Source: Verrucomicrobium spinosum (GTDB lineage Bacteria > Verrucomicrobiota > Verrucomicrobiia > JADLBR01 > JAIBCM01). Taken from it: a stretch of 41,550 bases of DNA. Below the pieces are notes generated by a model. The model made no database searches, was not told where the DNA came from, and was given only the letters and a program-made list of their open reading frames with translations. Shown piece after piece: positions 15,716-18,083 of the stretch (the stretch's first letter is position 1; every line of letters starts with the position of its first letter). The translations under genes were made by a program, and so were the position numbers. Location of the stretch: contig DYRQ01000009.1 in the NCBI GenBank assembly GCA_020718645.1, forward strand, positions 1 to 41,550. The letters are read 5' to 3'.

Positions 15716-16822
15716 CTAAGGCTGGGCAGGTTCTTGGAGCGTCGTCGGTATTCCAGCCAGAGGCAAGGCCGTGTCCGTCGGCCTTTCCAGGACTGGCAAT
15801 TTATAGGAGAGCAATTTACCACCACGGCGCACAGCCACATCGAGCGTGCCACCCACGGGTATAGAAAATGTAGCATCTACTACATCCTCTCCTCGGCGAA
15901 TACTGTATCCCGCTATGCTCACAATCGTATCCCCAGCCTGAATGCCTGCCTGCGCAGCAGGAGCCTTCTCATGAACAGACTTGACCGCCACCGCCTCTTG
16001 CAGTCCCACACTCGAGCCCGCTTCGATGCTAATCCCGACCCACCCCGTGCGCACGGTGCCATGCTGGGTCAGGTCGCTGACTACTTTGCCCAAAGCTCGA
16101 GCTGGCAACGCATAAGTGGTAGCGCCGTTATCCATAGAGCCAGTCACCAGTCCTACGACAGTCCCCGAGCGATCAAGCAGCGGGCCACCGACCAGTCCAG
16201 GCAGCAGGCGGATATCTGATCGGATATGGGTGGTGCAAAAATATTTTCCTTGAGGTGATTTACTCTCGAAACCCAGCAGAGTGCCAAAAGTTGGTGAAGC
16301 ATCGAGATTGTAGGGAAATCCAGCCGCCACCAACTGTGTCCCCATGCCGGGCAACTCCCCTGTCGAGATAGGCAGTGGCACGCCCTTCAAATCCACCTTC
16401 AGCAGCGCCACGCAACTTCTGCGATCCACTCCCATGACTTTCGCAGAAGCTTTTTGGTCACCATACTCCACCCAGATACCATCGCCCACGACCACCATGT
16501 TCGATGAGGTCACTACCTGAGAACCATCACCGTAGAAAAATCCAGACCCTGTCAGCGTGCCGAGCGGACTAGCCACACGAATTTTAACGAGAGATGGGCT
16601 AGCCTGCTGGAAGATGCGTGAAACCTCCTGTGACAGAGGCGTGGCATCAAGAGAACCCTGAGAGCCACCTGCCGCCTGTAGAGAGACAGCACTCCAAAGC
16701 ACAGTAAGGAAGATTGAAAAACAACGGCTCACACTCACAAAACCTGTTAGCATCACCACTGATGCTAATATCGCGAAAGGAAGAAGCAAGAGGTTAATAG
16801 AGCCTCCAGCGAACAGCCTCAA
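15716..16822 (-). CDS. HtrA/DegP-like PDZ protein with inactivated protease domain
   Basis: A 368-residue protein (from the outermost TTG start) with a trypsin-like HtrA domain (about 65-240), one PDZ domain (about 255-345) and a short tail. It aligns well with DegP, but the catalytic triad is gone. The position of the His in TNNHVV reads TSSNMVV (N108/M109), the Asp in DLAL-type motifs is Cys137 (RRSCVALLKV), and the nucleophile Ser in GNSGGP is Val211 (PGLVGGP). It should thus bind peptides or sense, not cut. The TTG at 16822 overlaps the anti-sigma stop as TTGA. The ATG at 16753 gives a cleaner signal peptide (MLTGFVSVSRCFSIFLTVLWS, reduced here), so the start is uncertain. It is third in a sigma / anti-sigma operon, like mucD after algU-mucA. 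Confidence 0.85.
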   Translation of the reverse strand: MRLFAGGSINLLLLPFAILASVVMLTGFVSVSRCFSIFLTVLWSAVSLQAAGGSQGSLDATPLSQEVSRIFQQASPSLVKIRVASPLGTLTGSGFFYGDGSQVVTSSNMVVVGDGIWVEYGDQKASAKVMGVDRRSCVALLKVDLKGVPLPISTGELPGMGTQLVAAGFPYNLDASPTFGTLLGFESKSPQGKYFCTTHIRSDIRLLPGLVGGPLLDRSGTVVGLVTGSMDNGATTYALPARALGKVVSDLTQHGTVRTGWVGISIEAGSSVGLQEAVAVKSVHEKAPAAQAGIQAGDTIVSIAGYSIRRGEDVVDATFSIPVGGTLDVAVRRGGKLLSYKLPVLERPTDTALPLAGIPTTLQEPAQP

Positions 16823-17310
16823 AATGAGATATTCGCCTCGTCGTAAACAACAGGAACCGCCGAATAACCCTCGTAGGTCTGCGCTGCCGCAGCTTGCGAA
16901 GAAGGCATTTCCAGAGAACGAGAGAAATCCATAAACTCTTTGAGCGAGTCTGAAGTCCTAGAAGCCGAAACAGAAGAATCTCCAGCCCCTACATCAAGCT
17001 TAAATCCCGAGGCCACTTGAACCCCAGAAATCCCTGATCCCATCTGGCCGCTCACAACAAAGGCCACTACGATGCAAGCAGCCGCAGCCACTGGAACCAA
17101 ACCTTTGCCGAAACTCCAGCAGAAGGACGACCAAGCCTCAGAAATCTGGGAAAGGCGAGCAGAGAGAGAAGAGCTTTCACGGCGAAGCATCTCAGCCTGA
17201 AGACGACGATGAAACTCTCGTTCGACCCCAGCCATCAGAGCCGCATCCGGCTTCTCAAAACGCTTGAGGCTCACTATGTTGACTATCGCCTGTTCAGTGT
17301 GTCTGTCCAT
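16819..17310 (-). CDS. Probable anti-sigma factor, single-pass membrane protein
   Basis: A 163-residue protein with a helical cytoplasmic N-terminal part (1-65), one membrane segment (about 69-87: GLVPVAAAACIVVAFVVSG), and a Ser/Ala-rich periplasmic tail with no cysteine. It lacks the HXXXCXXC zinc motif of ZAS anti-sigma factors. Its call rests on topology and on its place 8 bases after an ECF sigma gene and overlapping the HtrA-like gene. AGGAG lies 5 bases before the ATG, the best ribosome binding site in this operon. By analogy with RseA/MucA it would hold the sigma factor at the inner membrane until an envelope signal releases it. This is inference; sequence similarity alone would not name it. 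Confidence 0.7.
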   Translation of the reverse strand: MDRHTEQAIVNIVSLKRFEKPDAALMAGVEREFHRRLQAEMLRRESSSLSARLSQISEAWSSFCWSFGKGLVPVAAAACIVVAFVVSGQMGSGISGVQVASGFKLDVGAGDSSVSASRTSDSLKEFMDFSRSLEMPSSQAAAAQTYEGYSAVPVVYDEANISF

Positions 17311-17318
17311 GCTGTCTC

Positions 17319-17936
17319 CTATTGATCTTGGTTTTTTACCAAGTATCCAAGTTTCTTTTTCAAGTTTTTGTGCGCATGAAAAAGGCGCGTTTTTACCGTG
17401 CCTTCAGGAATTTTTAGCACATCTGCAATTTGCACATGCGTCATTCCTTGGATGTCATGCATCACAACAACCGTTCTATGCTCTTCAGACAATCCTTGGA
17501 TCGCTTCGTTCAATTTTTTTTGCAGCTCTTGGATATCACTATTTCCAATAGTCTCATTACCAGTGTTTTGCACATCAGCAGCAACTAAAGATGCTTCAAA
17601 GTCTCCTTCCTCTGTCTCCATACGGTCGAGGCTCATCATGGTGGTTCTGCGACGCTGTTTGAGGTGGTTGATGGTCGTATTGACGGCTATGCGGTAGATC
17701 CAACTCGAAAATTTTGCATCGAGGCGAAACCGGGGGATGGCCTTAAACGCATTCAAAAATACTTCTTGGAGCAGATCGTAGGCATCTTCCCTCTGGGAAG
17801 TCATGTGGTAGATGGTGGAGTAAATTTTATCTTTATATCGGCGGATGAGTTCGTCAAAGGCTTCGGTGTCGCCCGCCTGCACTTGGGCGACCAAGCCCTC
17901 GTCACTCTCTTCGATGAGATGGTGGGAGTCGTCCAT
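17319..17936 (-). CDS. ECF-family RNA polymerase sigma factor (RpoE-like)
   Basis: A 205-residue sigma factor. Region 2 (about 22-95) shows AFDELIRRYKDKIYSTIYHM, the DAYDLLQEVFLNAFKAIPRF core, and the FSSWIYRIAVNTTINHLKQRRR DNA-contacting helix (positions 76-97). A linker of about 45 residues follows. Region 4 (about 145-195) carries LSEEHRTVVVMHDIQGMTHVQIA and IPEGTVKTRLFHAHKNLK. The frame runs on upstream through the tRNA gene, so the start must be internal: the ATG at 17936 (MDDSHHL) is preferred, with 17966 as alternative; neither has a good ribosome binding site. It directs transcription of an unknown regulon, probably envelope stress given the partners downstream. Confidence 0.93.
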   Translation of the reverse strand: MDDSHHLIEESDEGLVAQVQAGDTEAFDELIRRYKDKIYSTIYHMTSQREDAYDLLQEVFLNAFKAIPRFRLDAKFSSWIYRIAVNTTINHLKQRRRTTMMSLDRMETEEGDFEASLVAADVQNTGNETIGNSDIQELQKKLNEAIQGLSEEHRTVVVMHDIQGMTHVQIADVLKIPEGTVKTRLFHAHKNLKKKLGYLVKNQDQ

Positions 17937-18009: not shown

Positions 18010-18083
18010 TCGGAGCGACAGGATTTGAACCTGCGACGTCTTGCTCCCAAAGCAAGTGCTCTACCAAGCTGAGCTACGCTCCG
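18010..18083 (-). tRNA. tRNA-Pro (anticodon UGG)
   Basis: A 74-base cloverleaf on the minus strand. The acceptor stem is CGGAGCG / CGCTCCG, the D stem GCTC / GAGC, and the anticodon stem CTTGC / GCAAG enclosing the loop TTTGGGA, so the anticodon is TGG. The T arm is GCAGG-TTCAAAT-CCTGT with one G-T pair. The discriminator base is A and CCA is not encoded. It lies between the export operon and the sigma operon, with a promoter-like site just upstream. Confidence 0.96.

Follow-up and report, generated by a model that had tools for sequence, protein, structure and literature searches.

A catalytically dead HtrA-like protein fixed beside an ECF sigma/anti-sigma pair, and a possible role for it as the binding module of an envelope-stress switch

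Results

The three-gene operon and its surroundings

Between positions 15716 and 17936 on the reverse strand of the window, by which we mean the whole analysed stretch of 41,550 nucleotides, lie three genes which encode an ECF sigma factor, an anti-sigma candidate and a protein with the HtrA fold and a PDZ domain (Table 1), all of them where the original prediction had placed them. The sigma protein possesses sigma regions 2 and 4 and lacks region 3 in Pfam, as is characteristic of ECF sigma factors, and it scores above the cut-off of the NCBIfam model sigma70-ECF TIGR02937; RpoE/SigW-like models are its top NCBIfam matches, below cut-off. Since its open frame, which extends to 18098, reads through the tRNA-Pro gene, the N-terminal extension of the listed frame is false, and the ATG at 17936 is likely the start of the gene. 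The tRNA itself was considered as a conserved upstream neighbor of the operon and rejected, as none of 20 ECF loci inspected in relatives, mostly orthologs of the window sigma gene, has a tRNA. At the other junction the anti-sigma stop and the TTG start of the HtrA gene share 4 nt. Further upstream, window 18164-39217 on the same strand is occupied by a run of genes starting with a Poly_export/SLBB protein and then a Wzz/tyrosine-kinase-like protein, which suggests an exopolysaccharide cluster.

Table 1. Positions of the genes and features of the operon in the window.
Feature	Position	Strand	Details
ECF sigma factor gene	17319..17936	-	205 aa from ATG at 17936; Sigma70_r2 and Sigma70_r4_2 (Pfam)
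Putative anti-sigma factor	16819..17310	-	163 aa; N-terminal helices, one membrane helix, disordered exported tail; predicted model and family alignment
Predicted anti-sigma membrane helix, residues 72-90	17041..17097	-	model; hydropathy maximum 2.35
Anti-sigma C-terminal Ile-Ser-Phe-COOH (hydrophobic-x-aromatic, family-conserved)	16822..16830	-	family alignment
Catalytically dead HtrA-like protein	15716..16822	-	368 aa from TTG; alternative in-frame ATG at residue 24
Probable signal peptide or N-terminal anchor, residues ~24-50	16673..16753	-	hydrophobic segment read from sequence
N108 codon, catalytic His position	16499..16501	-	profile alignment
C137 codon, catalytic Asp position	16412..16414	-	profile alignment
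V211 codon, catalytic Ser position	16190..16192	-	profile alignment
PDZ domain, residues ~260-345, starting with carboxylate-binding loop GWVGI	15788..16045	-	Pfam PDZ_2, PDZ_6, PDZ
tRNA-Pro (TGG)	18010-18083	-	directly upstream of sigma gene

An HtrA fold without the catalytic triad

The third protein shows the domain order of HtrA proteins, a trypsin-like domain (Pfam Trypsin_2, 1.8e-13) followed by a PDZ domain (PDZ_2, 1.2e-10), and its AlphaFold model has a mean pLDDT of 89.7. The best match in the PDB is DegS in complex with an activating peptide ending in YQF (E 2e-24), followed by MucD and DegP. The His-Asp-Ser triad of active HtrA/Deg serine proteases (S1C) is absent, with N108, C137 and V211 in its place. 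For the His position the prediction had offered 'N/M108-109', and the profile alignment settles on N108; the same alignment, together with comparison with the active paralogues, rules out a triad elsewhere in the fold. The protein is also far under the cut-offs of the NCBIfam equivalogs for DegS, DegP and HtrA (for DegS, TIGR02038, 80 bits versus 422.95), and it has no fold homology to RseB, as both fold and Pfam matches are those of HtrA and PDZ. A degenerate triad on an HtrA scaffold is the hallmark of MamO-type proteins and is present here, but the match to MamO is weak (24 bits versus a cut-off of 800) and the Pfam scan detected no C-terminal transporter domain of MamO type. The PDZ loop GWVG(I/V/L) is kept across the dead family, and the GWVGI of the window protein resembles GWLGV of AlgW. 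Elsewhere the genome of the window encodes three other HtrAs, all with intact triads, and gives one strong match to a site-2 protease and three matches to S41 proteases.

Conservation of the dead HtrA

A search with the dead HtrA protein recovered 30 clear orthologs, the one in the window included, and all 30 lie directly downstream of a homologous sigma gene and an anti-sigma gene. Once 388 genomes of the phylum had been searched with a profile and further loci extracted, the set had grown to 55 sigma-linked dead HtrAs, in which the catalytic His and the catalytic Asp were replaced without exception (55/55 each) and the Ser was retained in eight. The sigma factor was searched for as well, and an ortholog was found in 133 of the 141 genomes of the class at E <= 1e-50. 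Sixty further sigma loci were then fetched: 21 carry a dead HtrA, 38 do not, and one (L252), situated at a contig end, was set aside. None of these 21 proteins has an intact triad; the His and Asp positions are replaced in 16, and five have a protease core so eroded that these positions cannot be aligned. The total is therefore 76 sigma-linked orthologs with the HtrA gene directly 3' of the sigma/anti-sigma pair, none with an intact triad, 71 with both His and Asp replaced and five eroded. These operons come from about 33 groups at family level, almost all of them within the class containing Methylacidiphilum, whose own loci came from a narrow pattern search of named genomes; one operon (G059) is from a different class of the same phylum. 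In contrast, all 17 HtrAs without a sigma neighbor, among them the three others of the window genome, are intact, with His/Asp/Ser or His/Glu/Ser.

In a tree built without the triad columns the dead HtrAs are split from the active ones by a single branch with an SH-aLRT of 100. The dN/dS of the HtrA gene, calculated for close pairs in which dS is not saturated, is approximately 0.07-0.26, and the dead clade is under purifying selection. The identities of the residues at the His, Asp and Ser positions differ between lineages of the dead family, as might be expected of a decaying gene or of an alignment artefact, but 76 orthologs in one clade with intact frames, a dN/dS well below one and a high-confidence model make such an explanation extremely improbable, and recent decay is rejected by the number of orthologs and the low dN/dS. 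Selection for a non-proteolytic role and a design conserved throughout the lineage, both anticipated in the original prediction, are thus well supported by none of 76 intact triads in sigma-linked copies versus 17 of 17 in unlinked ones and by the dN/dS values; the observations it had named as counter-evidence, intact homologues in sister genomes and a triad situated elsewhere, were looked for and did not appear.

Two observations on individual copies can be added. Extremely eroded versions of the dead HtrA are found in L246, L248, L249 and L250 (group f5/g6) and in L217, and three of their anti-sigmas end in LIEM. The locus L105 (CAMCYL010000053.1) carries a dead HtrA at 45% identity.

The anti-sigma protein and its C-terminal end

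The model of the anti-sigma candidate contains helices at residues 3-17, 23-66 and 72-90 and is of low confidence beyond residue ~90. The protein has no significant match in Pfam or NCBIfam, and the zf-HC2 motif H-x3-C-x2-C is absent from it. The claim that the anti-sigma lacks the zinc motif is consequently right for the window protein and wrong for the family: zf-HC2 is matched by 10 of 30 family anti-sigmas, so its absence is lineage-specific, and zinc-free sensing was rejected as a defining feature of the system. Among the anti-sigmas of the loci L020-L031 some have an N-terminal zf-HC2 and others, that of the window included, do not. The presumed sigma-binding end of the anti-sigma has thus changed within one orthologous system.

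The anti-sigmas are in general poorly conserved, with a mean column identity of 23%, and the final Phe is among only three nearly invariant columns. In the 76 operons the last residue is Phe in 58, Tyr in 14 and Met in 4, i.e. aromatic in 72 (the end of L247 was read by hand and is included), and position -3 is hydrophobic in 61. The anti-sigmas which end in Met despite the presence of the HtrA belong to three loci of group f5/g6 and to L069. As a control we took membrane proteins whose genes follow other ECF genes in eight of the same genomes, and only two of 18 have an aromatic end, a difference with a Fisher p of 1.5e-12 that is uncorrected for relatedness. BamA proteins of this lineage end in Phe (22 of 24) or Tyr (2 of 24), mostly as YQF. 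The aromatic end of anti-sigmas encoded beside a dead HtrA, matching the ends of BamA, is a new finding of this work.

Sigma loci without the dead HtrA

The 38 sigma loci without an adjacent HtrA are almost equally divided between those whose anti-sigma has a non-aromatic end (20, of which 18 are one clade) and those in which the end is aromatic (18). The latter consist of one clade of 14 (group f15: L223, L228 and L233-L244) and of L197, L227, L229 and L232. Anti-sigmas of the clade of 14 are longer (~270-300 aa) and have ends such as SIKF or LTLKF; the next gene in several of its loci resembles a fumarase-type enzyme. HtrA presence changes about six times over the sigma tree, and in about two of these changes the aromatic end is lost along with the HtrA. 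With so few independent changes, an independent-pairs test of the association of the aromatic tail with the HtrA, which corrects for phylogeny, falls short of significance. Because 18 of the 38 HtrA-less loci keep the aromatic end, something else has to read the tail in some lineages; the simplest candidates are active HtrAs and Prc-type proteases, and both kinds are present in the window genome.

Discussion

The dead HtrA and the end of the anti-sigma that resembles those of outer-membrane proteins (OMPs) suggest, taken together, a stress sensor which would work by binding and not by cutting. It has been shown that the PDZ domains of AlgW and DegS bind C-terminal ends of the WVF and YxF kinds (PMC8545111). 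Our preferred reading, which we hold tentatively at slightly less than an even chance, is that the operon forms a switch for envelope stress, with an inactive DegS-like protein as a binding module that caps the anti-sigma tail until unassembled OMPs compete it off. The anti-sigma would tether the sigma factor to the inner membrane, while its flexible tail would reach into the periplasm and present there an OMP-like end (hydrophobic-x-Phe/Tyr-COOH). This end would be bound by the PDZ domain of the dead HtrA, and the anti-sigma, thus capped, would be out of reach of an active site-1 protease. Unassembled OMPs, on building up, would compete for the PDZ domain with their own ends of the YQF type. 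The freed tail could then be cut, either by an active HtrA or by a protease of the Prc type, after which an RseP-like site-2 protease would cut next and the sigma factor would be released. The original prediction had proposed a sensor of protein C-termini or a guard of the anti-sigma like RseB, and both roles would agree with an OMP-like tail. We advance with somewhat more caution the broader form of the hypothesis, i.e. that a near-universal switch of the Methylacidiphilum-containing class senses OMP assembly by ligand competition, the PDZ domain of a dead DegS holding the anti-sigma's mimic of an OMP end, unassembled OMPs displacing it and the receptor being a pseudoprotease.

The persistence of the aromatic tail at the 18 loci that have no dead HtrA could be attributed to a tail whose main reader is an active protease, either a DegS/DegP-like HtrA or Prc, for which it is a degron or an activating ligand. 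To that protease the dead HtrA would be a cofactor or a partner in a hetero-oligomer, bringing it into position or activating it in the manner of MamO with MamE. This main rival is somewhat unlikely in our estimation, but it has precedent and candidates: MamO, a degenerate protein of HtrA type, promotes MamE-dependent proteolysis without catalysis of its own (PMC4794232), and the three active HtrAs and three S41 proteases of the window genome could be the partners. What we observe, however, is a dead HtrA linked to the sigma operon and to none of the active HtrAs.

The dead family has also acquired conserved residues of its own, namely an Arg ten columns before the Ser position in 49 of 55 dead HtrAs, where all 17 active enzymes have Gln, and YALP where the active enzymes have FAIP. 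These hint that a new surface may have formed close to the former active site, and it is conceivable that the dead HtrA itself recognises misfolded proteins of the periplasm, with its PDZ domain and the groove of the pseudo-protease, and signals to the anti-sigma via another surface, the anti-sigma end not being its ligand. We regard this as unlikely, as it leaves the conserved last residue of a fast-changing tail unexplained and as the most eroded copies (L217, L246 and L250) are those in which Pfam still finds the PDZ domain and no longer the protease domain.

Proteolytically inactive HtrA variants can still be chaperones (PMC11642142), and an operon arrangement by itself permits co-expression, so that the dead HtrA could be a periplasmic chaperone of the regulon with no signalling role, the operon giving co-regulation only. 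Strict linkage to the same sigma/anti-sigma pair over some 33 family-level groups and the matching chemistry of the anti-sigma tail speak against it, and its probability is in our view low.

In the known OMP-sensing pathways an active HtrA (DegS, AlgW) is receptor and cutter in one. If the preferred reading of a capped tail is true, a lineage-wide switch which keeps the receptor without the cutter would separate sensing from cleavage, would show a protease scaffold turned into a signalling module, and would be a concrete starting point for the study of envelope-stress sensing in a phylum for which we found none described. The predicted contact is small, consisting of the last three residues of the anti-sigma and one PDZ domain. 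Separately, the parts are already known: dead HtrA-type proteins (MamO, plant Deg16), HtrAs in ECF operons (MucD, mycobacterial sigE-rseA-htrA) and sensing of OMP ends (DegS, AlgW). In the open-access literature we found no description of an ECF/anti-sigma operon in which a dead HtrA is fixed throughout a lineage and the anti-sigma has an OMP-like end, which is not proof of absence.

Comparison with known systems

Plant Deg/HtrA proteins with lost triad residues are known, e.g. AtDeg16 (PMC3473262); these inactive proteins are eukaryotic and have no known sigma partner. MamO of magnetotactic bacteria is likewise of HtrA type with a degenerate triad and has non-catalytic functions (PMC4794232), but unlike the protein described here it binds metal, has a transporter domain and a role in biomineralisation, and is not part of a sigma system. 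With RseB and MucB, the guards of RseA and MucA, the dead HtrA would share, by analogy, the role of a periplasmic binder which shields the anti-sigma, though they have a LolA-like fold and a lipid/LPS signal while here the fold is that of HtrA and the proposed signal an OMP C-terminus.

The operon algU-mucA-mucB-mucC-mucD, of the algU-mucA-mucB-mucD type with which the original prediction had drawn its comparison, is also an ECF sigma/anti-sigma operon that contains an HtrA gene; MucD is an active protease, whereas in the window operon the triad is missing and no mucB or mucC gene lies between. What that comparison missed is the closer gene order of mycobacterial sigE-rseA-htrA, in which ECF sigma, anti-sigma and HtrA follow one another in the same way. 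The differences are that HtrA of mycobacteria is regarded as a serine protease, that RseA belongs to the zinc anti-sigmas, and that the phylum is not that of the window.

DegS of E. coli and AlgW of P. aeruginosa, the site-1 proteases of the RpoE and AlgU pathways, resemble the dead HtrA in the HtrA fold with one PDZ domain, of which DegS is the top structural match, in the similar PDZ loop and in the tie to an ECF sigma/anti-sigma pair, and the YxF and WVF ends which are their ligands are matched here by both the anti-sigma tail and the ends of BamA. Unlike them, the dead HtrA has no catalytic triad and is encoded inside the sigma operon, and the OMP-like end is carried by the anti-sigma itself.
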